Notes under the pieces: generated by a model
Told to the model about the DNA's origin: nothing
The model's input: only the letters and a program-made list of their open reading frames with translations
The model's database searches: none
NCBI GenBank assembly: GCA_945861435.1
Contig: CAMAUX010000002.1
Coordinates: 62,001-126,000, forward strand
Direction: 5' to 3'
DNA length: 64,000 nt
DNA from: Chthoniobacter flavus
GTDB lineage: Bacteria > Verrucomicrobiota > Verrucomicrobiia > Chthoniobacterales > Chthoniobacteraceae
Part shown: in pieces, positions 32,953-48,364 of the stretch
How the letters are laid out: every line of letters begins with the position of its first letter
How positions within the stretch are numbered: position 1 is the stretch's first letter
Made by a program: the position numbers and the translations under genes

Positions 32953-33204
32953 GGGAATAAAATTTCAAATGTCCGCCCGCGATGCCGACTCTCCGGTATG
33001 GTGTGGTGCTCTCTGATTGCGGTGATTTCTCCCATGTCTTTGTCGTTGATTCTTCCGTCCTCTTTCCTCCTCGAATCGCCTGCAGTACTAGGCTGTGCAC
33101 CTGTGTATATACATTCAGGTCCTTGGCCTTGGAGGGCGGATGAGTTGTCGGCGTGCGCTGGGGCGTGTCGGGATCGCTTGGTTGGTGGAAACCCGGGGGT
33201 GCGC

Positions 33205-33213
33205 TGTGGATAA
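33205..33213 (-). promoter_or_regulatory. Consensus DnaA box overlapping the dnaA start codon
   Basis: TGTGGATAA is the perfect reverse complement of TTATCCACA. The GTG start of dnaA is bases 2-4 of this box, so DnaA binding would block translation initiation or early transcription elongation, in line with autoregulation. Confidence 0.75.
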
Positions 33214-34576
33214 CGGGCCCGAATTGCGCAGTTTGGAGGCCGTTTGGACCGAGATTTCCGGGCGGTTGCGTAGCGAAGTGAGCGTAGACACTTTCGAGCG
33301 CTGGTTTAGGGAGGCCGATTTGGTGGCCTTGGACGAGGTGCAGATGACGCTCCAAGTGCCGAACCATATTTATCAACTCTGGATCGAGAGCAATTACCTC
33401 TCGCTATTACGATCGGCGACAATGTTGGTGTGTGGATCCCCTCGTGAAGTGCATTTTGCCTTTAGTGCCCCTGATCAGGAGCCTGCGCCTCTGCCGACTC
33501 CGGCGCTCAAGCCCGCGGAGCGGGCGTCTGCGGTCACGGAAGTCGAGGCAGGGCCCTCAGGTTTGAATCCGCGCAACACTTTTGACCTGTTCGTTGTGGG
33601 GGCTAACAACCAGTACGCCCACGCGGCCTGTTCAGCGGTCGCGAACGCGCCTGGAAAGACCTACAATCCGCTTTTCGTTTACGGGGGAGTGGGTTTGGGC
33701 AAAACGCACCTCATGCAGGCGATCGGCCATCAGGTCGGGAAGCAGAAAAAGGGGAGCAAGGTTTTCTATGTCAGTAGCGAGCGGTTCACCAACGAGTTCA
33801 TCGACGCGATCCAGAACAGTACGCTGGTGAAGTTTCGGAAGCGGTATCGTCAGGCCGACGTCCTGCTGATTGACGATATTCAGTTTCTCGCCGGCAAGGA
33901 GCGTTCGCAGGAGGAGTTTTTCCATACCTTCAATGCTCTCTTCGACGGTCATAAGCAGATCGTCCTGTCCAGCGACAGGCCGCCATCGGAGATCGCCAAC
34001 CTCGAGCAGCGTCTGGTGTCCCGCTTTGAATGGGGTCTCACCGCAGAACTGCAACCGCCGGACGTGGAGACCCGTCTGGCGATTCTTCGGAAAAAAGCCC
34101 AGAGCCTTGGTGTGCAACTGGAACCGGCGGTGTTGGAGTTTCTGGCTGACCGTATTCGCAGCAATGTGAGGCGACTGGAAGGTGCGCTGATGCGTGTGGC
34201 CTCCTTCGCCTCTCTTTCCGGGCATGCTCCGACGAGCGACAAGATCGAGCAATTGCTCAAGGACATCCTGCAGGAGGAGGCGCGCCGGGCGGTATCCATC
34301 GAAGAGATTCAGCGTCGTGTAGCGGACCATTTTGACGTGCGTCTAGCGGATATGACCAGCAAGCGGCGTCCGCAAAACATCGCTTTTCCTCGTCAGATCG
34401 CCATGTACCTGGCCCGGGAGCTCACTCGTTCGTCACTGATGGAAATTGGGGAGGCTTTCGGTGGGCGCGACCACGGCACCGTTTTGCATGCACACCGGCA
34501 GATCAAGGGCAAGATGCACAGTGAGGAGAAGATCCGGCAGGTGGTGTCTTATCTGGACTCGCAACTGCAACGTTAG
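33206..34576 (+). CDS. dnaA: Chromosomal replication initiator DnaA
   Basis: The GTG start at 33206 is chosen because it places the first conserved helix (AVWTEISGRLRSEVSVDTFERW) at residue 12, as in the family; it gives 456 residues. Upstream in-frame ATGs would add an unconserved extension. Domain III has Walker A GGVGLGKT, Walker B DVLLIDDIQF, and sensor motifs. Domain IV ends in GGRDHGTVLHA, the DnaA signature that reads the DnaA box. DnaA opens the origin and recruits helicase. The next gene is dnaN, 114 bp downstream, giving the classic dnaA-dnaN pair; there is no recF or gyrB after it. Confidence 0.97.
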   Translation: MDNGPELRSLEAVWTEISGRLRSEVSVDTFERWFREADLVALDEVQMTLQVPNHIYQLWIESNYLSLLRSATMLVCGSPREVHFAFSAPDQEPAPLPTPALKPAERASAVTEVEAGPSGLNPRNTFDLFVVGANNQYAHAACSAVANAPGKTYNPLFVYGGVGLGKTHLMQAIGHQVGKQKKGSKVFYVSSERFTNEFIDAIQNSTLVKFRKRYRQADVLLIDDIQFLAGKERSQEEFFHTFNALFDGHKQIVLSSDRPPSEIANLEQRLVSRFEWGLTAELQPPDVETRLAILRKKAQSLGVQLEPAVLEFLADRIRSNVRRLEGALMRVASFASLSGHAPTSDKIEQLLKDILQEEARRAVSIEEIQRRVADHFDVRLADMTSKRRPQNIAFPRQIAMYLARELTRSSLMEIGEAFGGRDHGTVLHAHRQIKGKMHSEEKIRQVVSYLDSQLQR

Positions 34577-34592
34577 TGGTGAATCGGTGCCG

Positions 34593-34604
34593 ATTGGCGC
34601 CAAT
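34593..34604. promoter_or_regulatory. 12-bp palindrome in the dnaA-dnaN spacer
   Basis: ATTGGCGCCAAT is a perfect palindrome 88 bp before dnaN. It may be an operator; nothing else supports this. Confidence 0.25.
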
Positions 34605-34690
34605 TCTCTGCGGAGTGAGAGGAAAAGAAGATTGCCACCTTGAGGGGGGGATGGCATCAGATAGCGGTTTTATAGAATCTTGGTCTCCGT

Positions 34691-35785
34691 ATGAAATTCA
34701 GCGTCAGCAAAGAGAAACTTCTTGAGGGGTTGCAGACGGTTCAGAATGTGGTCAGCACCCGCACCACTCTGCCGATCCTTTCCAACGTCCTGCTCCAAGC
34801 GAGCGAGGGCAAACTCCGGTTGACGACCACGGACCTCGATGTTGGGGTTTCCGGAGAGTTCGATGTGCAAGTGGAGAAGGAGGGGGCTACGACCCTTCCT
34901 GCCCGGCGCCTTGCGACAATCGTGCGCGAGTTGCCTTCGAGCGAGGTGCAAGTCGAGATCGACTCCAAGAACGTCGCGTCGATCCGCTGCGGCCAGAGCT
35001 TCTTCAAGATCCTTGGGCTTCCCGAGGAGGAGTTTCCCCCGTTGCCCAAGTTTCAAAACGCGAAGGAATTTAAGATCAGCCAGAAGCAATTGCGTGATGC
35101 GCTGAAAAAGACCTCCTACGCGATTTCCACCGACGAGTCGCGTTACGTGCTCAACGGCATTCTGTTTTCCTTCAAGGAAAACAAGCTCACCATGGTGGCG
35201 ACTGACGGGCGCCGCCTTGCGCTGGTCGATATTGAACTCGAGTTTCCCCGCAGCCAAGAGGTCGAAGTCGTCGTTCCCGCCAAGTGCGTGACCGAGCTTC
35301 AGCGGTTGTTGGGCGAGGACGGGGAGTTGTTGATGACCGTGGGCGACAATCAAGTGGCCTTTGACATCGACCACACCCTGCTCGTGTCGAAGTTGATTGA
35401 AGGGAATTATCCCAACTATCGCCAGGTGATTCCGGGTGAGCCGAAGGAGCGGGTAACGCTTGAGCGCGAACTGTTTCTCACCGCGGTACACCGGGTCTCC
35501 TTGCTGGCCAGTGAGAAGTCCAATTCGGTGAAGTTGGTGTTTACCAAGAACAACATCGAGATCGCCGCCAATACCCCCGACATCGGCGAGGCTCGCGAAT
35601 CGATGACCGTGAGTTACAAGGGCAAGGACCTTTCCATCGCTTTCAATCCCGACTTTCTGCTGGCTCCGCTGCGCAATCTCGGGACGGACGAAGTTTTCCT
35701 CGATCTCATCGACGAGATGAGTCCGGGCGTCATCAAGATCCAGAGTCCCTTCCTCTACGTGCTGATGCCGATGCGGATAAGCTAG
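34691..35785 (+). CDS. dnaN: DNA polymerase III sliding clamp (beta subunit)
   Basis: 364 residues, the usual length. Three clamp domains of about 120 residues are visible: domain 1 from MKFSVSKEKLLEGLQTVQNVV, domain 2 from about 130 (SYAISTDESRYVLNGI), and domain 3 from about 250. The C-terminal SPFLYVLMPMRIS forms part of the groove that binds polymerase and repair factors. Two clamps dimerise into the ring that tethers the replicase. It lies 114 bp after dnaA and is followed by a 12-bp palindrome (GGGAAATTTCCC, 35791-35802) and tRNA-Leu. Confidence 0.97.
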   Translation: MKFSVSKEKLLEGLQTVQNVVSTRTTLPILSNVLLQASEGKLRLTTTDLDVGVSGEFDVQVEKEGATTLPARRLATIVRELPSSEVQVEIDSKNVASIRCGQSFFKILGLPEEEFPPLPKFQNAKEFKISQKQLRDALKKTSYAISTDESRYVLNGILFSFKENKLTMVATDGRRLALVDIELEFPRSQEVEVVVPAKCVTELQRLLGEDGELLMTVGDNQVAFDIDHTLLVSKLIEGNYPNYRQVIPGEPKERVTLERELFLTAVHRVSLLASEKSNSVKLVFTKNNIEIAANTPDIGEARESMTVSYKGKDLSIAFNPDFLLAPLRNLGTDEVFLDLIDEMSPGVIKIQSPFLYVLMPMRIS

Positions 35786-35867
35786 GTGCGGGGAAATTTC
35801 CCTTTGCATTCTCGGATGGGCTCTGAGACATATGCGACTCCTCTGGCGCAGGCCGGATTCTTTACAT

Positions 35868-35951
35868 GCTCGTGTGGCGGAATGGCAGACGCGTACGGCT
35901 CAGGACCGTATGGGGAAACCCGTGGAGGTTCGAGTCCTCTCGCGAGCACCA
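35868..35951 (+). tRNA. tRNA-Leu (CAG)
   Basis: 84 nt including an encoded CCA. The acceptor GCTCGTG (35868-35874) pairs with CGCGAGC (35941-35947), followed by A and CCA. The anticodon stem TACGG/CCGTA holds loop CTCAGGA, so the anticodon is CAG. A long variable arm is present, as expected of a class II tRNA, and the T arm has GGTTCGAGTCC. It lies between dnaN and the menG/ubiE gene. I saw no direct repeat of its 3' end that would mark an integration site. Confidence 0.97.
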
Positions 35952-37260: not shown

Positions 37261-37285
37261 AGTTTCCCCGGCGGTTTGAGAGCAG

Positions 37286-37329
37286 GCAGCGGCGTGCGGA
37301 GGATGGCCTCCGGCGCCGCTGCGTTTTTT
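37286..37329 (+). terminator. Rho-independent terminator
   Basis: GCAGCGGCG (37286-37294) pairs with CGCCGCTGC (37314-37322), with an inner GGAGG/CCTCC stem and an ATGG tetraloop, followed by G and six T. It ends the DUF5666-like gene and shows that the next gene must start after 37330. Confidence 0.93.
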
Positions 37330-37374
37330 CCTGAAGTCAACGGCAACCTTGACGCCTCTCTGCTCCGGCGTTAT

Positions 37375-37992
37375 GTGGGCCGCAAGTTGAAACTGCGACT
37401 TTGCATGTTGTTGTTGGTTCTCGGTGCCTCGCTGCTTGGCGGGGGCTGTGCACTCAAGGATCCGCGTCTTGACCCTTCGGTGGTTTACGTGGGGGAACGA
37501 CCCGCCGCGAAGGAGGCGACGCGGGCTAATTTTGACGACGTGTCCTACTGGGACGACGCGGGCATTTCTGGCTCTGCTTCCATCCGAATCAGTCTCTCGG
37601 AGCAGAGGGCGTACTTCTACAAGGGGGGCGAACTGGTTGCCGTCTCAGCCCTTTCCAGCGGGCGCGAGGGTTTCGGCTCTCCAACGGGTAGCTTCAAGGT
37701 TTTGGAGAAGAGCCGCGACCACAAGTCGTCCCTGTACGGGGATTATGTCGATGCCAGCGGGAATGTGATCCGTAAGGATGTCGATGTCTCGAAGGATCCG
37801 AAACCGTCGGGCGCGAAGTTTGACGGTGCGAAGATGCCGTTCTTCATGCGGGTGAGTGGCGGGGTGGGATTGCATGAGGGATTCCTACCCGGTTATCCGG
37901 CCTCGCATGGCTGCATTCGGATGCCGGGGTTCATGGCGCAGAAATTTTTCGACAACGTGAGCGTTGGCACCCCGGTAGTCATCGCGCCTTGA
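37375..37992 (+). CDS. L,D-transpeptidase (YkuD) lipoprotein
   Basis: The upstream frame is excluded by the terminator, so the GTG at 37375 (205 residues) is chosen; TTG at 37387 and ATG at 37405 are alternatives. A lipobox LLGGGC makes it a likely lipoprotein. The YkuD domain carries the catalytic block HEGFLPGYPASHGCIRMP (His, Ser-His-Gly-Cys-Ile-Arg), with the Cys as nucleophile. These enzymes make 3-3 peptidoglycan cross-links or attach lipoproteins and resist most beta-lactams. It is 3 bp from the rhodanese gene and 1.5 kb from a class C serine hydrolase and BlaI/M56 pair. Confidence 0.92.
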   Translation: MGRKLKLRLCMLLLVLGASLLGGGCALKDPRLDPSVVYVGERPAAKEATRANFDDVSYWDDAGISGSASIRISLSEQRAYFYKGGELVAVSALSSGREGFGSPTGSFKVLEKSRDHKSSLYGDYVDASGNVIRKDVDVSKDPKPSGAKFDGAKMPFFMRVSGGVGLHEGFLPGYPASHGCIRMPGFMAQKFFDNVSVGTPVVIAP

Positions 37993-37994
37993 GC

Positions 37995-38327
37995 ATGGAC
38001 GCGGTGCAGCAAATCTCAGCGCAGGATGCTCGGAAGTTGCTTTCCGGGCCGCTACCTCCGCGGCTCATCGATGTGCGCGAGCAGCGGGAGTGGGCGCTGG
38101 CCCGCGTGGAGGGAGCCGAACTTCTTCCGCTCTCGCAGTGGCCTGGGATTGTGGGTGAGTCACTCAAGGATCCGGAGGAGGCTCTGGTGTTGATCTGTCA
38201 CCACGGTGTGCGCTCGGCGTCGGCGGCGTCCCATCTCATCACGCTTGGGTTCAAGAGGGTGTTCAATCTGCGCGGTGGGATCGATGCGTGGACGCGCGAG
38301 GTCGATCCCAGCGTGCCGCTTTACTGA
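37995..38327 (+). CDS. Rhodanese-like sulfurtransferase
   Basis: 110 residues from ATG 37995 (a TTG two codons earlier is also in frame). A single rhodanese domain: PPRLIDVREQREWALARVEGA, the active loop LICHHGVRS with the catalytic Cys, and FNLRGGIDAW near the end. Rhodaneses transfer sulfane sulfur to cyanide or protein acceptors. It begins 3 bp after the L,D-transpeptidase. Its stop codon overlaps the stop of the convergent serine hydrolase by 7 bp, so there is no terminator between them. Confidence 0.9.
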   Translation: MDAVQQISAQDARKLLSGPLPPRLIDVREQREWALARVEGAELLPLSQWPGIVGESLKDPEEALVLICHHGVRSASAASHLITLGFKRVFNLRGGIDAWTREVDPSVPLY

Positions 38328-39475
38328 GCGGGTGCTGCCCTCCCGGCGGGCGCTATTGTCAGATGCTGGCGGATAAGAAGCGAGAGGGCTTGGTCACAGG
38401 CGCTTTCTGCGGCTGGGCCCGCGATGTTGGTGGCGGCGACGGCGGCGAAGCCGCGTTCGGGAGCGACCCACATTACGGCGAAGAACATCGTGTTGGAGCC
38501 AGCGTGTGTCAGCGCCCGCCCCCCCGCCCACTGGCGTTGGGTCACGCGCCAGCCGAGCGCGTAATCCCCGGCGGAAGGAGTGTGCAGTTTCTGGAGGGTC
38601 TTTTCCGGAAGGAATCCGGCAGCGCCCTCGCGCGCATGGAAGCCTGCGTACCGTGCGAAGTCTCCGATGGAGAGGTGGACAGCCCCTGCGGGAGCGATTG
38701 CGGGCGGGTTGTCGGCTTGCGGGCCTGGAGGGACAGGGTGCGGCGTCCCGCGGATCCACCTGTGGCCGAGGGGTTGCCGTGGGCGCTCTGGGCTGCATGG
38801 TGGGCCGAAGCCGGCCGAAGAAAGGCCCAGGGGTTGGAAGAGGCGGGTGCTAAGGAGATCCTCCCACGGCTGTCCGGCTGCTTTTTCGAGCATGGACCCA
38901 GCGATGGCGTAGCCTTGGTTGGAGTAGGTGAATGTTCGCTGCGGCGTGTCAGGCGGATCGTGGAGCAGGCCGGCGACAAACGCGGTTCGCTGTCGTGTGT
39001 GGGTTCCTGACTGCCGCCATGCCTCCTGCCACAGGGTGGGTGGGGGAACCGCAGGCGCTCCGGCACGGTGGCTCAGCAGGTCGATGAGCGTGGCCTGACG
39101 CCAGTGCTCGTGCATGGGAATCTCAGAGAGGACATCGCCCACGGTGCTCTCCCAGTGAATCTCCCCTTTATCCACCATCATCGCCGCGAGGGTGGATGTC
39201 ATCGATTTGGTGCAGGATCCCACGTGCCAGAGGTCGTCCACCGTAACTGCGTCGGTGCCGTCGGAGGATCGGACGCCGGAGGCGCCCTGTGCGATGAGTT
39301 CCCCTCCGATGACCGCCGCTGCAGCGAGGGCTGGCACGCCACAATCCGCACGGATGGTTTCAAGTGCGGGTGCGATGTCTGCGGGGGCGGCGGGAGCACT
39401 GAGTGGCAGTGCGGTGCACGCGACTGTGAGGATGCCGCGCAAGACGGCTCCGGGCTTTGCGAGGGGGCGGTGCAT
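38321..39475 (-). CDS. Class C beta-lactamase-like serine hydrolase, secreted
   Basis: 384 residues with a signal peptide (about 1-30). Motifs: SCTK (Ser87-Lys90) as SxxK, YSNQGY as YxN, and HAG (THAGSN) in place of KTG. This is the class C/DD-peptidase/esterase group (PF00144). The HAG motif is common in esterases and peptidases of the group, so beta-lactam hydrolysis is not assured. It lies divergent to the BlaI gene (259-bp spacer), like a bla operon, and its stop overlaps the rhodanese stop. The spacer carries a palindromic operator next to the blaI promoter. Confidence 0.88.
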   Translation of the reverse strand: MHRPLAKPGAVLRGILTVACTALPLSAPAAPADIAPALETIRADCGVPALAAAAVIGGELIAQGASGVRSSDGTDAVTVDDLWHVGSCTKSMTSTLAAMMVDKGEIHWESTVGDVLSEIPMHEHWRQATLIDLLSHRAGAPAVPPPTLWQEAWRQSGTHTRQRTAFVAGLLHDPPDTPQRTFTYSNQGYAIAGSMLEKAAGQPWEDLLSTRLFQPLGLSSAGFGPPCSPERPRQPLGHRWIRGTPHPVPPGPQADNPPAIAPAGAVHLSIGDFARYAGFHAREGAAGFLPEKTLQKLHTPSAGDYALGWRVTQRQWAGGRALTHAGSNTMFFAVMWVAPERGFAAVAATNIAGPAAESACDQALSLLIRQHLTIAPAGRAAPAQ

Positions 39476-39672
39476 CGAAGGACATTATGGATGGAGGAAT
39501 CGTGCAGGCAAGGGGCCCGCAGGTTGGGCGCTTGCGGCATTGCTGCGATGGCCGGGCAGGAGGCGCGCCGGTTCCTGTGAATGAGCACGCCAGAGTGATG
39601 GGCTGTTGGAGGGCCGCGGTTTGGATGCTGCGTTTTCGCAGTGACCCGTCCGGGGGTGGGACGGCGTCCTGA

Positions 39673-39690
39673 GTGTTAATTTATTAACAC
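39673..39690. promoter_or_regulatory. Palindromic operator upstream of blaI
   Basis: GTGTTAAT-TT-ATTAACAC is an inverted repeat with 8-bp arms and a 2-bp centre. It sits just upstream of the -35 element of the blaI promoter and 197 bp from the serine hydrolase start. BlaI-type repressors bind such dyads, so autoregulation is likely. Confidence 0.6.
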
Positions 39691-39697
39691 ATCGGTA

Positions 39698-39727
39698 TTG
39701 ACGCGGCCTGTGTTTTCGATGTTAAAA
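39698..39727 (+). promoter_or_regulatory. Sigma-70-like promoter, possibly leaderless, for blaI
   Basis: TTGACG (39698-39703) and TTAAAA (39722-39727) with 18-bp spacing. Transcription would begin about 39734-39735, at the ATG of blaI, which suggests a leaderless mRNA. The -35 matches 5 of 6 positions. Confidence 0.5.
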
Positions 39728-39734
39728 AATACGC

Positions 39735-40115
39735 ATGTCGTCAGATTCCCCTCATCTCACCCGGCGTGAGCGTCAGATCATGGACATCATCTTCCGTCGC
39801 GGTGAGGCAACCGCCGCTGAGGTCAATGCGGCGCTTCCCGATCAGCCCAGCTATTCCACCGTCCGCACCCTGCTGCGTATCCTTGAGCAGAAGGGCCATT
39901 TGAAGCACCGCGAGGACGGGCAGAAGTTCGTTTATTCTCCAACGCGCACGCGTGCCGCGGCGAGCCGGTCCGCGCTCAAGCGCGTGGTGAACACCTTCTT
40001 TGAGGGATCGTTTTCGGAAGCGGTTGCCGCGCTCGTGGACACGGCGGACGGGAAGTTGCCGGCCGCGGAGTTGAAGCGCATCGAGGCCATTATCAAGAAC
40101 GCGAAATCCAAATAA
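39735..40115 (+). CDS. BlaI/MecI/CopY-family transcriptional regulator
   Basis: 126 residues. A winged-helix DNA-binding domain covers about 8-85: LTRRERQIMDIIFRRGEATAAEV and SYSTVRTLLRILEQKGHLKHREDGQKFVYSP (the usual typical turn and wing). A C-terminal dimerisation part ends in LKRIEAIIKNAKSK. Such repressors are cleaved or released when an M56 membrane protease senses a signal. The M56-containing partner gene starts 11 bp downstream, the usual blaI-blaR arrangement. A dyad operator precedes its promoter. Confidence 0.95.
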   Translation: MSSDSPHLTRRERQIMDIIFRRGEATAAEVNAALPDQPSYSTVRTLLRILEQKGHLKHREDGQKFVYSPTRTRAAASRSALKRVVNTFFEGSFSEAVAALVDTADGKLPAAELKRIEAIIKNAKSK

Positions 40116-40125
40116 TCTCCCCGCC

Positions 40126-41907
40126 ATGGAACTCGGATCCCATCTCCCGCTTCTGATCGATCTTCATTTGAAAAGTGCGGTGCTCATCGCGTTCGCGGCG
40201 CTGTTAACCGCAGTGCTGCGGCACACGTCGGCGGCGAACCGGCACGGCATCGGGCTCGCGGCCCTCATCGCATTACTGGTGCTGCCTTTCACGCAACTTG
40301 GGAAGCCGCTCTGGTCCTATGCGCTGAAAAATGGGGAAGTGGTCGAGTCGGTCATCCTCGAATCGCAACCAACCGCCGTGAAGTCCTCAGCGGGAAGCGG
40401 TGCGGCGTTGTCTCGGGTTGACTCCGGTGACACATGGGAGTTTTGGAGTTCGATCCCTGCGCACTGGCCCGCCATGGTTGTCGGTCTCTGGGCTGCGGGA
40501 ACTGTGTTCGTTCTGATGCGCCGAGCGGTGGGGCAGGTGAAGCTGCGTCTGATTGCCTCTCGGAGTCGTGTGATGTCCGAAGGGCGCGCCGTCGTGCTCG
40601 CTCGCGATATTGCGGCTGATTGGGGTGTGCGCGCGCAAATTCGGGAGTCGGAGACGTGCCGTGTGCCATTGGTCTTTGGGGTGTGGCGGCCCGTGGTGCT
40701 TCTGCCGAGTGAAGCGCTGGCGTGGAGCGACGAGCGTCTGAGTGCGGCTTTGCGGCACGAGTTTGGTCACATCCGTCGTCGGGATGTTCTCACTCGGTGG
40801 CTTGCGGATCTGGCGTGCGCTTTCTACTGGATGAATCCGTTGGCATGGCATGGCGTTCGTTTCCTGCGACTGGCGCAGGAGCAGGCCTGCGACGATCTCG
40901 TGCTGCGTTCCGGCATTTGTCCGGACGCCTACGCCACGCAGTTGGTGGAGGTCGTCCGGAGTCTGCGCCGCAGCCGTTTCGGGAGCAGCCACGCATTGGC
41001 GATGGCGCAGCCCTCGTCGCTTGAAGTCCGCGTACGGGCCATTGTGGATGCGAGCCGCGATCGCACTCCGCGGGGCTTGCGCGGAGCATGGGCGGGAGGC
41101 GTGCTTGCTCTCTTCGTGCTCGCGCTTTGCACGGTTGCACAGCTGCGCGGAGCCGATGGAGGGAAGGCCTCGGCTGTTGCGAATGACAAGGAGCGGCAGG
41201 TGGAGGTCGAGGCGATCTTCGTCGAGTATTCTGGCAAAGATGGGGATCTGCCCGAGTTTTTGAGAAGCTTTGTGCGGATGACGAAGCCGGGGGTGGGAGG
41301 GCTTGTGTCCGGGGAGGTCGCCAACAAGGGATTGAAGGCGCTGCGTGAGATCAAGGGATTGGATGTGCTTTCCTCTCCAAGGGTCCTCTTGCGGCCGAAA
41401 ATGCAGGGGGTGATCGCGGTGGGACGCGAGTTCGTCTATCCGAAGGAATGGGAGACAGACGCCCCATCCGGCAAGGGGCAGCCCAAGGCTCTCGACAACC
41501 GGTTCATTGGGGTGCGTTTCGGGGTGACTGCCGATCTGACTGCGGGCGGTGCCATCCAGCTGCAGTTGGCGCCCGAGGTCACAGAGTTCGAGGGATTTGT
41601 GATGTGCGATAAATCGGGACGGGTGCTGGGAGACGGAGCGCCTGTCTTGAAACCAGGGAGCGCCCCGCGACCGCCCGATGGCACGGAGCCAGGTGACCTT
41701 CTGAAGCAGCCCATCTTTAGCACGCGCAAAGTGGAAGCCAGTGTGACGCTGGAGGACGGGCAAATGGTCGTGCTCGGAGGTTTGCAGCGGAAGTGGACCC
41801 CGGATGTTCCGGGGGCTGATGCCGGTGGCAGTCCCATTCAGAAGGGAGCAGAGCAGGGTGCAAAGACGCTGATGGTGCTGGTCACTGCCCGGGTTTTGGC
41901 ACCATAG
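40126..41907 (+). CDS. BlaR1-like M56 membrane protease fused to a secretin-like domain
   Basis: 593 residues. Membrane helices lie at about 14-32, 42-58, 115-132 and 323-341. The M56 zinc motif HEFGH is at 211-215 with a third ligand Glu252 in QEQACDD. In BlaR1 a beta-lactam-binding domain follows the last helix; here residues about 355-593 instead resemble the secretin C-terminal fold: SPRVLLRPKMQGVIAVGRE, VTADLTAGGAIQLQLAPEVT, and VTLEDGQMVVLGGLQRKW. A signal sensed by this domain could trigger cleavage of BlaI. Alternatives are that the domain oligomerises or docks on outer-membrane machinery. It is 11 bp after blaI. Confidence 0.9.
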   Translation: MELGSHLPLLIDLHLKSAVLIAFAALLTAVLRHTSAANRHGIGLAALIALLVLPFTQLGKPLWSYALKNGEVVESVILESQPTAVKSSAGSGAALSRVDSGDTWEFWSSIPAHWPAMVVGLWAAGTVFVLMRRAVGQVKLRLIASRSRVMSEGRAVVLARDIAADWGVRAQIRESETCRVPLVFGVWRPVVLLPSEALAWSDERLSAALRHEFGHIRRRDVLTRWLADLACAFYWMNPLAWHGVRFLRLAQEQACDDLVLRSGICPDAYATQLVEVVRSLRRSRFGSSHALAMAQPSSLEVRVRAIVDASRDRTPRGLRGAWAGGVLALFVLALCTVAQLRGADGGKASAVANDKERQVEVEAIFVEYSGKDGDLPEFLRSFVRMTKPGVGGLVSGEVANKGLKALREIKGLDVLSSPRVLLRPKMQGVIAVGREFVYPKEWETDAPSGKGQPKALDNRFIGVRFGVTADLTAGGAIQLQLAPEVTEFEGFVMCDKSGRVLGDGAPVLKPGSAPRPPDGTEPGDLLKQPIFSTRKVEASVTLEDGQMVVLGGLQRKWTPDVPGADAGGSPIQKGAEQGAKTLMVLVTARVLAP

Positions 41908-42215
41908 GAAATTCTTGGCGGCAGGTGTTGGAGGTCTCTTGCTTGCTCGCAGTTTCCAGCGGATTTGCGGAGCGGTTGGAAAACTGCGTGTTCGACTTGG
42001 CGCGGAGGTCATCCGGGACTCCAGCCACAACGGCACGGGGAAGTGCGCGGCGTGGTTTCTGGAGGGCATGTTTGCTCTGATTTTACAGGATGCGCATGAG
42101 GAGTCGGTTGACCCGCTCCCTCGCGGCGGTGTTAGCTAGACAGCAGTCCTTGTTTCGGAGGGCCCGTATTGGACCTTGGGCACTCCGGACATTCCCCGCT
42201 CGATCCGAATTGCTT
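41908..42215. other. 308-bp spacer before the MoxR operon
   Basis: No gene is visible. A weak promoter-like pair (TTGACC at 42108-42113 and TTAGCT at 42132-42137) lies about 80 bp before the MoxR start. A frame is open through most of the spacer but has no family resemblance. Confidence 0.4.
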
Positions 42216-43235
42216 ATGACCGCCCCGACACCCGCCCCCCTGCTGCCGAAGGATGATGTGGACGCGCTGGATCATCTGCGGGAGGTGTATCAGAAGCTCC
42301 GCAGCGAACTGGGGAAGATCATTGTGGGGCAGGACAAGGTGGTGGAACAACTGGCCATCTGTCTGTTTGCGCGCGGCCATGCGTTGCTCATGGGCGTGCC
42401 GGGCCTTGCCAAGACGCTGCTGATCAGCCGGCTTGCGGAGACGCTTTCGCTGAGCTTCAGCCGGATCCAGTTTACGCCGGACCTCATGCCGATGGACATC
42501 ACCGGCACCGACATCCTACAGGAGCTGCCTGGTGGGAAGCGGGCGTTCGAGTTTGTGAAGGGGCCGGTGTTTGCCAACATCGTGCTCGCCGATGAGATCA
42601 ACCGTGCGCCGGCGAAGACGCAGGCCGCCATGCTGGAGGCCATGCAGGAGCACCGGGTGACCGTCGCCGGACGTCCGTACACGCTGGAGTCGCCGTTCTT
42701 CGTTCTCGCGACGCAGAACCCCGTGGAGCAGGAGGGGACGTACCCGCTGCCCGAGGCGCAGCTCGACCGTTTCATGTTCATGATCGGCGTGGATTATCCG
42801 TCGCGGGCCGAGGAGATCACGATCGCGCGCAACACCACCGGGATGCAGCTGCCGCGTCTTGAACATGTGCTTGATGGTGCGAAGGTGCTGGCGTTTCAGG
42901 ATCTCGTGCGCCGCATTCCCGTTCCCGACCATCTCTATGAGTTTGCGGTCGACCTTGTGCGCAGGACGCGTCCCAACGGCGGTGATGCTCCGGCATGGGT
43001 CAAGCCGCTCGTGAGTTGGGGCGCGGGCCCGCGTGCGGTCCAGTATCTGATCCTTGGAGCGAAGGCGCGTGCGGCGCTGCACGGGAGTTATGTGGTGCGG
43101 CGGGAGGACCTCGTGGAGGTGGCGGAGCCTGTGCTGCGTCATCGTGTGATGACCACCTTCACCGCGGAAAGCGACGGAATCAGCAGCCGCGACGTGACGC
43201 GTCGCCTGCTCGAGGAGTTGGCCAAAGAGGTGTAG
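42216..43235 (+). CDS. MoxR-family AAA ATPase
   Basis: ATG 42216 (MTAPTPAPLLPKDD) gives 339 residues. MoxR motifs: Walker A GVPGLAKT, Walker B VLADEINRAPAKTQ, the arginine-finger region EGTYPLPEAQLDRFMF, and a helical lid. MoxR proteins assist the maturation of partner proteins, usually vWA and DUF58 proteins encoded alongside, as here. It is the first gene of a seven-gene operon (42216-58237) with mostly 4-bp overlaps. A frame upstream is open to 42090 but is unlikely to be coding. Confidence 0.95.
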   Translation: MTAPTPAPLLPKDDVDALDHLREVYQKLRSELGKIIVGQDKVVEQLAICLFARGHALLMGVPGLAKTLLISRLAETLSLSFSRIQFTPDLMPMDITGTDILQELPGGKRAFEFVKGPVFANIVLADEINRAPAKTQAAMLEAMQEHRVTVAGRPYTLESPFFVLATQNPVEQEGTYPLPEAQLDRFMFMIGVDYPSRAEEITIARNTTGMQLPRLEHVLDGAKVLAFQDLVRRIPVPDHLYEFAVDLVRRTRPNGGDAPAWVKPLVSWGAGPRAVQYLILGAKARAALHGSYVVRREDLVEVAEPVLRHRVMTTFTAESDGISSRDVTRRLLEELAKEV

Positions 43236-43239
43236 GCCC

Positions 43240-44139
43240 ATGGCCGAGACCGGATCGTTCCTCGAACCTGCGGTCCTTGCGCGTCTGATGGCGCTGCCGG
43301 TGCATGCGCGCCATGCGATGCTGGGGAGCGTTTCCGGCAAGCACCGCAGCCCCGTGCGAGGATCGTCCCTGGAGTTTGCCCAGTATCGCAAATACGTGCC
43401 GGGAGACGACACGCGGCGTCTGGACTGGCGGACATGGGGGCGCAGCGATCGGTTTTACATCAAGGAATTCGAGGCCGACACCAACCTGCGGCTCTGCCTG
43501 CTGCTGGACACGAGCGGTTCCATGGGATTCGGGGTGGAGGGCGCGACGCGCTTTGATTACGCACGCAAGCTTGCGGGGACGCTGGGTTATCTCGCAGCGA
43601 AGCAGGGCGACGCGGTGGGTTTGTGGAGCATGGCTGCGGATCGCGTGGAGCTTCCGGCGCGCCGCGGTGCATCGCATCTCGGACTTGTCCTTGAGCAGAT
43701 GGGTGGCTTGCGGCCCATGGGGGGGACGACGTTGATTGGAGCGCTCCATGATGTGGCGGAGCGGATCCGGCAGCGGGCGCTGGTGATTGTGTTTTCGGAC
43801 TTCTTCGTGCCGCCGGCTGAGCTCAAGGGGGCGCTCCAGCACCTGCGCTTTCGCAGGCACGATGTGGCGGCGTTCCATCTCCTTGATCAGCAGGAGTTGG
43901 ACTTCGACTTTGAGCGGCCCGTGCGCTTTGTGGACATGGAGGGTGGGGAGCCGGTGCAGGCCGATCCCTCGCTGATTGCGCGCAATTACCGGGAGGCGGT
44001 CGCGAACTACCTCAAGGAGATGGATGAGTTGGTGAGGACCACGGGACTCGACTATCACCGCGTGATAACGCAGGAGCGCTACGACGCTGTGCTTGCGAGG
44101 TTCCTTCTGGGAAGAACGCCGAAGACCGGCTCGCGATGA
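43240..44139 (+). CDS. DUF58 protein
   Basis: 299 residues. DUF58 hallmark: RGSSLEFAQYRKYVPGDD, then RRLDWRTWGRSDRFYIKEFE. A vWA-like fold follows with CLLLDTSGSMGFG (DxSxS, residues about 87-97). MoxR/DUF58/vWA modules chaperone or assemble envelope enzymes in many bacteria. It starts 5 bp after moxR and its stop overlaps the next start (ATGA). No membrane helix is predicted, so it is probably cytoplasmic. Confidence 0.95.
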   Translation: MAETGSFLEPAVLARLMALPVHARHAMLGSVSGKHRSPVRGSSLEFAQYRKYVPGDDTRRLDWRTWGRSDRFYIKEFEADTNLRLCLLLDTSGSMGFGVEGATRFDYARKLAGTLGYLAAKQGDAVGLWSMAADRVELPARRGASHLGLVLEQMGGLRPMGGTTLIGALHDVAERIRQRALVIVFSDFFVPPAELKGALQHLRFRRHDVAAFHLLDQQELDFDFERPVRFVDMEGGEPVQADPSLIARNYREAVANYLKEMDELVRTTGLDYHRVITQERYDAVLARFLLGRTPKTGSR

Positions 44140-46163
44140 CGTTCCTCGAGCTCAGCCCGCTTTACGCGCTGCCGTTGGCCGCCCTGCCGGTGGTGATCCA
44201 CCTCATCCATCTGTACCGGCGCAAGCAGGTGCGATGGGCGGCGATGATGTTTTTGTTCACGGCGCAGCAGATGCACAAGGGACTCTCGCGCCTGCACCGC
44301 ATCGCGATTCTCTGTCTGCGGGTGCTGGCCGTGTTCGCCATCCTCTGCGCGATCGCGCGTCCGCTTGCGGGCGGGTGGCTCGGGCTCACGGGTGGCGCGC
44401 CAGACACCGTGCTGGTGCTGCTCGATCGGTCCGCGAGCATGGAGGAGGTTCATCCCGCAACGGGGGTGAGTAAGCGACTGGCTGCTGTGCGCAATGTTTC
44501 CAAGGCGATCGAGGATGCGGTGGGGCGACGGTCCAAGGTGGTGCTGATCGAAAGCGGGCACGGAAAGCCCCTGCTGCTTGAGCATGCGGGTGCCATGACG
44601 GATCTGGTGGAAACCGCTGCCACGGACGCTGCCGCGGACATTCCGGGGATGCTGCAGGGCGCTCTCGACTACGTCACCACGAACAAGACGGGGCGCACGG
44701 ATGTCTGGCTGGTGGCGGATTTGCAGAGGAGCGCTTGGGCGCAGGAGAGCGGGCGTTGGGAGGCGCTGCGCGGTGCGTTCGCGGCTCTGCCCGGGGTGCG
44801 TTTTCATGTGCTGACCTATCCGCAGGTACCGGAGGAAGACCTTGGGGTGCGCGTGGAACGGGTGGCGCAGCGGCGCAGCGGCGAGAAAGCCGAGCTGCTG
44901 CTCGATCTGCGCGTCGCGCGTCGTGGTGCTGGTGCTGGTGCTGGGCCGTTGGAGGTGCCGCTGCGGCTGGTGGTCAACGGGGTGGCGACGACGAGCAAGG
45001 TCACCATTCAGGAGTCGGAGTTGCTGCTGCAGGCGTTCCCGGTTGCGGTCGACCGCTCCACGGTGCGCGGTTGGGGGCGGGTGGAATTGCCTGCGGATGC
45101 ATTCCCCGCCAACGACGTGTTCCACTTCGTCTTTGATGAGCAGCCTGTGCTGGCCTCTGTGGTGGTGAGCGATGACGAGGCGGAGGCGGCGCCGCTTGCT
45201 GCCGCGTTGAGTGCGCCCGCCGAGCCGCATCAGAAGTACCGTTGCAGCGTGCTGCCCGTGAAGCGCGCGGCTGAGATCGCATGGGAGCAGACTGGTCTGC
45301 TGGTGTGGCACGCGCCCATTCCTGCAAGGGAGGAGGCGATTCATGCACAGATGAAGGAGCACCTTGCGCAGGGACGTGCGATCCTCTTCCTGCCGCCTGC
45401 CAATCCCGGTGCGGCGGAGTTTGCGGGGCTGAGTTGGGGGGCGTGGGAGACGTTGGATCCGCCCGCCGGGCCCGACTGGTGGCGCAACGACACGGGTTTG
45501 CTTGCCAACACGCGCGACGGCACCGCGCTGGCAGTGGGCGGGCTTGAGGTCTCGCGCCTGTGCAAGATCGGTGGTGCGGGGATTCCTCTTGCCCGGCTTC
45601 CCGGGGGTGGCGCTCTGCTGATGCGTGCCGCGGAGCAGCCTGCATACTTTCTCGCGACCCTTTGCGGGGCGGGGAGTTCCAGCTTTGCGCGAGACGGGGT
45701 GGCGATGTTTGCGATGCTACATCGGGCGCTTCAGGAGGGGGCGGGGACTCTGGGAGCGGCACAGCAGCGCATTGCGTCGGCGGATGCGCTTGCTCGCGGC
45801 GGGGAGGGGTGGCGTCCTGCGGATGAACGTGCAGTGCCGGCTGGCGAGATGGTGTTGAAGGCTGGTGTGCTGGCGTCTGGGAAACAGTTGGTGGCGTTGA
45901 ACCGGCCGGCTTCGGAGGACGACTTCAGCACGGTTTCGCCGGCGGTCCTCAAGGAGTGTTTTGCAGGTCTTAATGTGCAGATTTTGAGTGATGCGATGGA
46001 GGAGGGCGGGAGTCTCACGAGCGAGGTGTGGCGCACGTTCCTTGTGGCGATGGCGCTGGCGCTCGTGGGCGAGGCGCTGCTGTGCCTGCCTCCCCGTCGT
46101 GCGGCTTCCCCGCTTGAACGCGGTGCCGCGGGAGCTTTTGCCGTGCATTTCAGCAAGTCATGA
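44136..46163 (+). CDS. BatA-domain membrane protein with vWA-like region
   Basis: 675 residues. N-terminal BatA domain with two membrane helices (about 5-25 and 55-75): MTFLELSPLYALPLAALPVVIHL and IAILCLRVLAVFAILCAIAR. A vWA domain follows (LVLLDRSASMEEV with DxSxS). After a middle extracytoplasmic part, one last helix lies near the C-terminus. A GAG-repeat codon run (GCTGGTGCTGGTGCTGG) encodes GAGAGAG near 268. BatA-type proteins act with MoxR and are in the Bacteroides aerotolerance (Bat) group. It overlaps both neighbours by 4 bp. Confidence 0.88.
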   Translation: MTFLELSPLYALPLAALPVVIHLIHLYRRKQVRWAAMMFLFTAQQMHKGLSRLHRIAILCLRVLAVFAILCAIARPLAGGWLGLTGGAPDTVLVLLDRSASMEEVHPATGVSKRLAAVRNVSKAIEDAVGRRSKVVLIESGHGKPLLLEHAGAMTDLVETAATDAAADIPGMLQGALDYVTTNKTGRTDVWLVADLQRSAWAQESGRWEALRGAFAALPGVRFHVLTYPQVPEEDLGVRVERVAQRRSGEKAELLLDLRVARRGAGAGAGPLEVPLRLVVNGVATTSKVTIQESELLLQAFPVAVDRSTVRGWGRVELPADAFPANDVFHFVFDEQPVLASVVVSDDEAEAAPLAAALSAPAEPHQKYRCSVLPVKRAAEIAWEQTGLLVWHAPIPAREEAIHAQMKEHLAQGRAILFLPPANPGAAEFAGLSWGAWETLDPPAGPDWWRNDTGLLANTRDGTALAVGGLEVSRLCKIGGAGIPLARLPGGGALLMRAAEQPAYFLATLCGAGSSSFARDGVAMFAMLHRALQEGAGTLGAAQQRIASADALARGGEGWRPADERAVPAGEMVLKAGVLASGKQLVALNRPASEDDFSTVSPAVLKECFAGLNVQILSDAMEEGGSLTSEVWRTFLVAMALALVGEALLCLPPRRAASPLERGAAGAFAVHFSKS

Positions 46164-48364
46164 GCACCGGCCCCGCATCGCTTGTTTTCACGCAGACTCC
46201 GGCCTCGTTGGCTGTGGCGGTGGGGTTCGTTGCTCTGGTGCTGTTTCTTGGTTGGGTGGCGTGGCAGCGGAGTGGATGGCGCAGGGCCACAGGCTGGTTG
46301 GAGGTGCTGCGGGTTTTGATTGCGGTGATGATCGCCATCACGCTCAACCAGCCGGAGTGGCGCGAGGTGTTTCAGCCGGACTTCAAACCCACGCTGGCGG
46401 TGCTGCGCGATGTGTCCCGTTCGATGGAGACGCGCGATGTCGTGGATCCGGCGAATACGGTGGCGGAACCGAAGTCGCGCGCCGAACTGGTGGCGCCGTT
46501 CGTTGAAGCCCGTGTGTGGGCGGGGATTGCGGAGCGCATGGAGGTTGTGCCGGAGACGTTTTCGTCGTCGCTGGAACCCGCCGTGGAAGGCTCTGATCTG
46601 AATGCCGCGCTCGCCCAGGTGTCCGAGAAGCACCCGCATCTCGGTGCGGTGGTGCTGCTCTCTGATGGAGATTGGACTGCGGGCGAGGCGCCGAGTGTTG
46701 CCGCGACGCGGCTGCGGATGCGCGGGGTGCCGGTGTTTACGTTGCCGGTGGGGGCGGAGGCGCGTCTGCCGGACGTGCAGCTCACGAGCTTCGAGGTGCC
46801 GACGTTCGCGGTGGCAGGCAAGCCGGTGCGCATTCCATTCACGATTGAGAGTTCGCTGCCTGGAGATGAGCCGGCTTTGCTGGAGATGACCTCGAGCGAT
46901 GGTGAGGTGGTGTCCAAGCGAGTGGTGATCCCGGCGATGAGCCGTCTTCAGGACGTGCTCGTGTTCAAGCCACAGAAGCCCGGGGAACTGAAGCTTTCGC
47001 TCAAGGTTCCGCGGACGGCCGGGGAGCGGTATGTGGAGAACAACGTGCTGGAGGCGCCGCTTTCCGTGCGCAAGGAGCAGTTGCGTGTGCTGGTGCTGGA
47101 CACCTATCCGCGCTGGGAGTTTCGGTACCTGCGCAACGCGCTCGAGCGTGATCCCGGCGTGCTGCTGCATTGTGTGCTCCTGCATCCGGATCTTGGAAAA
47201 ACGGGTGTCGGGCGGGGCTATCTCCCGGCGCTCCCGAAGGACGATGATCTTGCGGGTTACGACGTGGTGTTTCTCGGGGACGTTGGGGTGGGTGCGGGAC
47301 AACTCACACCGGCGCAGTGCACGGCGCTCCAGAAGCTCGTGCGTGATCAGGCGGCCGGGATTGTCTTCCTGCCTGGGCTGCGCGGATTTGAGGGGACGCT
47401 GCCGAATTCGCCGCTTGGGGATCTGCTGCCCGTGGTGCTCGACGACGCCAATCCGCGTGGATCGGGCTCTGCGAGCGTGTCGCAGTTGGTGCTCACGGAT
47501 GCCGGGACACGCAGCCTGCTCACCAAGCTGGAGGATACCGAAGAGGGCAGCGCCAACGTGTGGCGCAATCTCCCGGGTTTCCAGTGGCACGCTCCGGCGC
47601 TGCGGGCGAAGGCGGGGAGCGAGGTGCTGGCCACGCATTCCACGGAGTCGAATCGGTTCGGACGGATCCCATTGCTGGTGACCAAACCGTACGGTGCGGG
47701 GAAGGTGTTGTTTCTCGGGACGGACGGCGCGTGGCGTTGGCGCAAGGGGGTGGAGGACCGCTATCACTACCGGTTCTGGGGGCAGGTGGTGCGGTGGATG
47801 GCGTATCAGCGCAACATGTCGCAGGGGGACAAGATGAGGCTGTTCTACTCGCCGGACCGGCCGCAGTTGGGAGCCGGGCTGACATTGAACGTGAATGCCA
47901 CGAGTGCGGCGGGCGAACCGTTGCGTGAGGGGACGGTGGTGGCGCAGTTGACCGCGCCCTCGGGCAAGACCTCGAGTGTGCGTTTGTTGAGTGCCGGGGA
48001 GGATGCATGGGGGCTCTTCAGCGGCGTGTTCATCCCCGCGGAACCCGGCGAGTACAGGGTCTTGGTATCCTGTGCAGAGGCGGGTTCGCGGCTTGAGACG
48101 CGTCTTTCGATCCAAGGGAGCAGCCGCGAGGTGGTGGGTCGGCCGGCAAGACACGATGTGCTGCGCGAGATCTCCCAGCTCACCCGTGGGCGCATGCTGG
48201 AGTCAGCGGATCCGAAGGCCCTTCTTGAGGCCGTGGCCGCACTTCCGCCCCAGGAGCTCATCGAACGTCGGGTTCGTATTTGGGCGCACCCGCTCTGGGC
48301 TGGATTGGTGATCCTTCTTCTGGGCATCTTCTGGGCGGCCCGCAAATCGACCGGCTCGTTCTAG
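46160..48364 (+). CDS. Membrane protein with vWA-like and class I glutamine amidotransferase-like domains
   Basis: 734 residues. Two N-terminal helices (about 14-34 and 46-65) precede a vWA-like region with LAVLRDVSRSMETRD (DxSxS). A beta-sandwich stretch of about 200 residues follows, then at about 310-430 a glutamine-amidotransferase-like fold (YDVVFLGDVGVGAGQLT, GIVFLPGLRGFEG), and a last helix near the C-terminus. This is the layout of the large vWA/GATase-like proteins encoded with MoxR/DUF58/BatA in Planctomycetes and Verrucomicrobiota. It overlaps the previous gene and is 12 bp before the next. Confidence 0.85.
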   Translation: MSTGPASLVFTQTPASLAVAVGFVALVLFLGWVAWQRSGWRRATGWLEVLRVLIAVMIAITLNQPEWREVFQPDFKPTLAVLRDVSRSMETRDVVDPANTVAEPKSRAELVAPFVEARVWAGIAERMEVVPETFSSSLEPAVEGSDLNAALAQVSEKHPHLGAVVLLSDGDWTAGEAPSVAATRLRMRGVPVFTLPVGAEARLPDVQLTSFEVPTFAVAGKPVRIPFTIESSLPGDEPALLEMTSSDGEVVSKRVVIPAMSRLQDVLVFKPQKPGELKLSLKVPRTAGERYVENNVLEAPLSVRKEQLRVLVLDTYPRWEFRYLRNALERDPGVLLHCVLLHPDLGKTGVGRGYLPALPKDDDLAGYDVVFLGDVGVGAGQLTPAQCTALQKLVRDQAAGIVFLPGLRGFEGTLPNSPLGDLLPVVLDDANPRGSGSASVSQLVLTDAGTRSLLTKLEDTEEGSANVWRNLPGFQWHAPALRAKAGSEVLATHSTESNRFGRIPLLVTKPYGAGKVLFLGTDGAWRWRKGVEDRYHYRFWGQVVRWMAYQRNMSQGDKMRLFYSPDRPQLGAGLTLNVNATSAAGEPLREGTVVAQLTAPSGKTSSVRLLSAGEDAWGLFSGVFIPAEPGEYRVLVSCAEAGSRLETRLSIQGSSREVVGRPARHDVLREISQLTRGRMLESADPKALLEAVAALPPQELIERRVRIWAHPLWAGLVILLLGIFWAARKSTGSF

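Follow-up and report, generated by a model that had tools for sequence, protein, structure and literature searches.

The locus described here lies in the window, the whole 64,000-nucleotide stretch of contig CAMAUX010000002.1 (assembly GCA_945861435.1) that was analyzed, and it consists of a gene for a BlaI-type repressor followed by a gene for an M56 metalloprotease receptor with a secretin-type sensor. The window's own genome, labeled G000, is Chthoniobacteraceae-like Verrucomicrobiota (other G labels denote genomes, and L labels denote loci). The repressor gene, blaI (39735..40115, plus strand), encodes a BlaI/MecI-type winged-helix protein of 126 amino acids (Pfam Penicillinase_R, E = 8e-30 by hmmscan) that is 70 to 78% identical to the BlaI proteins adjoining M56 genes at three other loci (L040, L041, and L042). 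The receptor gene follows on the same strand after a gap of 10 bp (40126..41907; 593 amino acids) and matches both the M56 and Secretin families of Pfam, its structural model being comparable to BlaR1 and to secretins. The two genes form the usual blaI-M56 pair, just as an earlier note, made from the DNA sequence alone, had read them. Judged from its Penicillinase_R domain, its gene's place beside an M56 gene, and a dyad operator at its own promoter, the first protein is a BlaI/MecI repressor.

The first part of the receptor (40126..41160, plus strand) is BlaR1-like, with four membrane helices (residues 3-30, 36-58, 114-146, and 318-345 in the model) and a zinc protease. Peptidase_M56 (PF05569) aligns to residues 10-306 with an E value of 3e-26. 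The zinc protease residues are HEFGH at 211-215, E252, D256, and R302, and among them H211, E212, H215, E252, D256, and R302 are invariant across 11 aligned fusions; the equivalent residues of BlaR1 serve catalysis and its domain-swapped active site (PMC9834060). In the model, residues 6-301 superpose on the Staphylococcus aureus BlaR1 structures 8exs (Z = 21.4, 256 residues aligned, 5.0 Å) and 8ext (Z = 20.7, 244 residues aligned, 3.2 Å). By profile, HExxH motif, downstream Glu and Asp, and four helices, this half is a member of peptidase family M56 and a BlaR1-type transducer. The likeness ends with the protease: NCBIfam blaR1_generic aligns to residues 116-340 only (74 bits, against a cutoff of 400), and Pfam returned no penicillin-binding, transpeptidase, or beta-lactamase family in residues 342-593. 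By these searches the protein is not a beta-lactam receptor of the BlaR1/MecR1 kind, which has a class D-like transpeptidase sensor at its C terminus. An SxxK-like string in the sensor, STRK, was considered as a serine site and discarded, as it is part of a conserved secretin block, FSTRK.

What stands in place of that sensor is a secretin-type domain (residues 355-593; 41188..41904, plus strand). The earlier note had proposed a secretin-like sensor over residues 342-593; its secretin character stood up, while its start did not, since the fold begins at about residue 355 and residues 318-345 form the fourth helix. The profile searches and structure prediction that the note had suggested as checks both bore out the resemblance. 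Pfam Secretin (PF00263) matches residues 409-556 with an E value of 8.7e-15 and 55.2 bits, twice the curated cutoff of 27.5 bits, and the best NCBIfam secretin family for the whole protein is Amuc_1098_fam (E = 1.4e-20). In a search of the PDB with residues 345-593 as a single sequence, type II secretins came out on top (E = 9e-5), and a profile built solely from M56-fused sensors, with true secretins left out, found GspD (E = 4e-12) as well as pIV, RcpA, and PilQ. An AlphaFold model of the receptor (mean pLDDT 81.7, pTM 0.56) had BlaR1 and secretins as its leading Foldseek matches. Residues 355-593 of the model resemble pIV and GspD (Z = 12, about 130 residues aligned, 2.6 to 3.5 Å, 27 to 28% identity), a comparison that is not fully independent because true secretins were in the model's input alignment; the Pfam and single-sequence PDB searches are independent. 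Since the Pfam and NCBIfam matches, the single-sequence search, the fusion-only profile, and the modeled fold all agree, the resemblance reflects homology rather than chance, and the sensor belongs to the secretin superfamily by core fold and by sequence. We regard the overall architecture, a BlaR1-like protease joined to a secretin-type sensor, as practically certain.

The sensor retains the long barrel strands of secretins (residues 426-444, 451-471, 477-494, and 526-542) and lacks their amphipathic helical loop, which the genome's own Amuc_1098-type secretin (contig C18 of G000, 33084-35888; L052:5085-7889) has as GDIPLVGRLF. This loop is missing from 16 of 17 M56 fusions, the exception being L085, and is present in all Amuc_1098-type secretins compared. 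Every secretin with a solved structure has a loop of this kind (VPxLGxIPxLGxLF), which is believed to initiate outer-membrane insertion (PMC6532946). By this measure the window's protein is not an outer-membrane channel secretin, and with the loop lost and a tether in the inner membrane, its secretin core should remain in the periplasm. Amuc_1098 itself is the type IV pilus outer-membrane protein (secretin) of Verrucomicrobiota. The sequence comparisons are best explained if the sensor descends from, or closely shares ancestry with, this pilus secretin family: the core blocks are the same, and so, in sister sensors, are the N0/STN repeats. The sensor differs from Amuc_1098 in being fused to an inner-membrane protease and in having neither the secretin's own N-terminal region nor the core loop.

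Other fusions of this type, for which the earlier note had proposed a genome search, were found. The window's genome has a second blaI-M56-secretin pair (contig C8, 20600-23360; L039:6107-8860, minus strand), in which two N0/STN-like repeats stand behind the secretin core. When a fusion was defined as a match spanning both the M56 and sensor halves, and partial contigs were included, fusions occurred in 9 of the 147 genomes surveyed in the order (G000 and G047 with two each, and G054, G136, G139, G041, G118, G020, and G124). A sample of the phylum (387 genomes, strict cut, three candidates scored per genome) added five more genomes with both-half fusions (G358, G517, G221, G168, and G500). Named carriers include Chthoniobacter flavus Ellin428, Rariglobus, Phragmitibacter, one Opitutae metagenome-assembled genome, and other Verrucomicrobia, while members of Prosthecobacter and Verrucomicrobium have an N0/STN-type sensor without the secretin core. 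No match was found in the viral contigs searched. The fused sensors are very divergent (about 20 to 35% identity) and their tree is unresolved, with long branches; a single origin of the fusion was dropped as a claim, the starred branches forcing at least three label changes, and we argue for neither one origin nor many.

Profiles that we built from these blaI-M56 loci depict a modular sensor, with secretin cores, N0/STN repeats, and LptA-like segments arranged in varying order behind one conserved BlaI/M56 core. Of the NCBIfam secretin families, Amuc_1098_fam scored highest for every sensor tested: the sensor region of C. flavus matched it in four stretches (E = 2e-69; its STN repeats alone, E = 2e-38), and the L091 sensor of Verrucomicrobiaceae UBA7681 matched it with an E value of 2e-48. 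The STN repeats also match the N0 domain of PilQ, by sequence when searched alone (E = 9e-4) and by structure (Z = 8.9), and in the model they match the signaling domain of PupR (CCSSD, 6ovk; Z = 9.8). STN fell under the Pfam cutoff in all members tested. A model of the C. flavus sensor (pLDDT 71) resembles secretin cores (Z = 13); its matches to the PupR signaling domain and to N0 domains reach Z = 9 to 10, and LptA is matched weakly (Z = 7.9); LptD_N scored above its cutoff in L040 and L081. Other sister receptors carry modules of other kinds. Squalene-cyclase-like toroids form the sensors of M56 receptors at L042 (7772-10438, minus strand), L082, and L083, the first two of which also have STN repeats; at L018 (G038) the M56 C terminus is TlpA/thioredoxin-like, and at L017 (G103) it consists of beta-rich repeats. 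The existence of these sister receptors indicates that the BlaI/M56 core accepts different sensors.

This modularity bears on whether the secretin-type domain is a mere scaffold that oligomerizes M56 or displays loops for an unrelated ligand, such as a peptidoglycan fragment, a lipid, a metal, or a sugar, so that its origin would be uninformative about the signal. The divergence and long branches of the sensors would suit a scaffold, as would the presence of unrelated modules (the toroids of L042 and L082, the thioredoxin-like domain of L018) on near-identical BlaI/M56 cores; the toroid-bearing L042 in fact has the BlaI (78%) and M56 (52%) nearest to the window's. Yet independent sensors repeatedly draw their modules from one machinery (secretin core, N0/STN, and LptA-like), which would not be expected of a random scaffold, and the barrel strands are kept. 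We see the scaffold reading as a real possibility that falls well short of probable.

Regulation of the pair can be read to some extent from its promoter. At 39673-39690, the position that the earlier note had singled out for BlaI binding, lies an intact dyad, GTGTTAATTTATTAACAC, which we read as the distal BlaI operator and which has a counterpart at the same place in the blaI promoters of most relatives. With 0 mismatches allowed, the genome contains no second copy of this dyad, and shuffles of the window gave no match. A second, proximal operator at 39720..39735, TGTTAAAAAATACGCA, is degenerate; its equivalent in relatives reads TGYTAA-N4-TTARCA. Between the two, at 39698..39703 on the plus strand, TTGACG is a probable -35 element that falls in a conserved CTTGNC/TTGAC column, although a sigma-70 scan did not return it. 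Across relatives (an alignment of 14 blaI promoters and inspection of 18), the 18 promoters have dyads of the TGYTAA-N4-TTARCA type, mostly two, about 43 to 46 bp apart and flanking a TTGNC box; the second dyad overlaps the blaI start, and the arrangement is independent of sensor type. In 227 kb of blaI-M56 loci, 33 such sites fell at blaI and 2 elsewhere. The G054 and G136 genomes contained no other exact dyads. The second system of the window's genome has canonical CTACAN2TGTAG dyads, which in both G000 and G124 occur genome-wide solely at its own blaI promoter. With the dyads confined to their own blaI promoters, the repressors look mainly autoregulatory, and autoregulation by BlaI is, on this sequence evidence, highly likely.

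In G120, dispersed TGTTAAAWWTTTAACA-type palindromes (e.g., L042:7504 and L075:3830) came to 17 dyads, where the control had 1, and resembled a regulon. That reading was dropped, as several of the closest matches were intragenic and at least two lay in frame as VKFLT.

Operators found solely at the system's own promoter (in the window, in G054 and G136, and for the second system in G000 and G124) would also be expected if the M56-secretin protein were itself the effector, that is, a self-induced inner-membrane protease or a device that traps secretin protomers gone astray, BlaI serving only as a feedback valve. However, weaker operators may have been missed, and with the sensor in the periplasm and the protease in the cytoplasm, direct proteolysis of secretins is unlikely; the known BlaR1, moreover, works via BlaI. 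We therefore consider an effector role of this kind unlikely.

The surroundings of the pair invite an explanation closer to the classical one. Divergent from blaI is a class C-type serine hydrolase gene (38321..39475, minus strand; PF00144, E = 3.5e-49), as the earlier note had it, and an L,D-transpeptidase gene lies nearby (37276..37992, plus strand; YkuD, E = 9.6e-19). Conceivably the pair controls the hydrolase and senses beta-lactams or the cell wall, including peptidoglycan damage, with the sensor working together with a penicillin-binding protein in trans: the hydrolase gene shares its intergenic region with the intact operator, of which it is a possible co-target judging by position, and the L,D-transpeptidase is close. 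But about 198 bp separate the operator and the hydrolase start, and the hydrolase scored 51.6 bits against the class C beta-lactamase model NF033085 (cutoff, 415), far under all class C beta-lactamase cutoffs, so that it is by sequence a PF00144 hydrolase outside the class C beta-lactamases. None of the relatives examined has the hydrolase close to blaI-M56, and the L,D-transpeptidase belongs to a set of several unrelated genes around dnaA-dnaN; the earlier note's argument from the neighbors is not supported. No penicillin-binding domain was found in the receptor, whose residues 355-593 match secretins. Sensing of beta-lactams or the cell wall by this route seems improbable to us; given the secretin-type sensor and the other fusions, a signal other than beta-lactam, which the note had suggested, is very probable.

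Immediately after M56 and in its orientation (42090-48364), genes for a MoxR ATPase, a DUF58 protein, and a BatA-like protein and a further large gene stand in a row. No terminator or promoter was predicted in the M56-MoxR interval, so read-through from M56 is possible. The hydrolase and the MoxR operon were both rejected as functional partners because neither is conserved beside blaI-M56 in relatives.

Some relatives have secretin-like genes beside the pair. In G041 a gene for a 219-amino-acid secreted secretin-like protein lies between blaI and M56, and in C. flavus the M56 gene is followed by one whose product, with two STN-like repeats, is predicted to be secreted. Rariglobus has a thioredoxin-secretin-core fusion (L088:34-1854) about 4 kb upstream of its blaI-M56-secretin pair, and this core is the sister of its M56 sensor core (99/87 support). 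A hopanoid-type cluster adjoins M56 in C. flavus and is near a true secretin in G000, which is suggestive and was not used as support. Stand-alone relatives also occur. L002/L051 (contig C5 of G000, ~55850-56760) encodes a 302-amino-acid secreted secretin core that keeps the helical loop, possibly a mini-secretin; L050 (contig C89 of G000) and L053 (contig C5 of G124) encode, without M56, a secreted secretin-like core and then an STN-like repeat, the opposite order to real secretins, and L053 also holds an LptA-like segment.

We propose that BlaI would repress its own operon and that the tethered sensor would make beta-sheet contacts with periplasmic secretin-type proteins, either unassembled or mislocalized secretin protomers or a secreted look-alike. 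Such contact, or its loss, may alter the M56 dimer and lead to self-cleavage and then to cleavage of BlaI, as in BlaR1, which cleaves itself and BlaI when its sensor is acylated by beta-lactam (PMC9834060). The output would be mainly the blaI-M56 operon and perhaps read-through genes downstream or the divergent hydrolase. As in the BlaR1/MecR1 and BlaI/MecI systems of S. aureus and Bacillus licheniformis, there are a blaI-M56 pair, four helices, a gluzincin zinc site, a protease that superposes on BlaR1 cryo-electron microscopy structures (Z = 21 for residues 6-301), and repressor operators at the blaI promoter. In contrast to those systems, the sensor is of the secretin rather than the penicillin-binding type, the operator is TGYTAA-N4-TTARCA rather than TACA-type, and there are candidate targets only, where theirs are beta-lactamase and PBP2a.

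In favor of contact with secretins are sister sensors that consist wholly or mostly of modules from secretins and outer-membrane assembly, the secreted proteins of like domain type encoded next to M56 in G041 and C. flavus, the invariant catalytic residues, and the operators conserved in 18 promoters. Two precedents make such contact a reasonable proposal. The regulator PupR sits in the inner membrane, has a beta-domain next to the membrane and an STN at its C terminus, and binds an outer-membrane transducer at the latter's STN-type domain (PMC7186176); in the inner membrane, PspBC forms specific complexes with multimers of mislocalized secretin (PMC5596341). The receptors share with FecR/PupR an inner-membrane regulator with a periplasmic beta-domain and, in sister sensors, a C-terminal STN; they differ in that FecR acts on a sigma factor rather than through M56 and BlaI, and in that the window's protein is without STN. 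Like the Psp response, the receptor would sense misassembled secretins from the inner membrane, but the two have no sequence relation. PspC was not found in G000, G054, G120, or G041 but is present in C. flavus, so the receptor is not a clean replacement for it; its absence was set aside as support, since G120, which has no secretin sensor, also lacks it.

Several observations weigh against secretin sensing. The window's sensor is a secretin core alone, with neither STN nor an LptA-like module, and no secretin-like partner adjoins its M56 gene. The right half of its proximal dyad is lost, and only autoregulatory operators were found, so that no effector genes indicate which stress is sensed. 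Some sister sensors carry unrelated modules, such as the squalene-cyclase-like toroid of L042. Most genomes of the order, for their part, have Amuc_1098-type secretins, which makes co-occurrence uninformative. By analogy with the known systems, contact of the sensor with secretin-type proteins that relieves BlaI, weaker forms included, would seem to have not quite an even chance. That the signal is the assembly state of secretins or the outer membrane, as the earlier note had mooted, is plausible, aided by the LptA-like and N0/STN modules of sister sensors. The fuller proposal, that the receptor family detects the assembly state of secretin or outer-membrane machines via like-with-like contacts and so relieves BlaI repression, we put forward as tentative.

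BlaR1-type receptors have been studied almost solely as antibiotic sensors, and here the same protease-repressor core is found with envelope-machine sensors. Such receptors, with sensors made of secretin or envelope modules, are genuine and undescribed in the literature searched, in which no paper joining BlaR1, M56, and secretin was found. The sensor and the operators are defined, as is a candidate partner, the Amuc_1098-type secretin of the same genome, and the named strain C. flavus Ellin428 has a member of the family, so the proposal is directly testable. The fusion family offers a concrete hypothesis for how bacteria may monitor secretin or outer-membrane assembly; if true, it would constitute a proteolytic route from outer-membrane secretins to transcription and a BlaI-based counterpart of FecR/PupR and Psp sensing.

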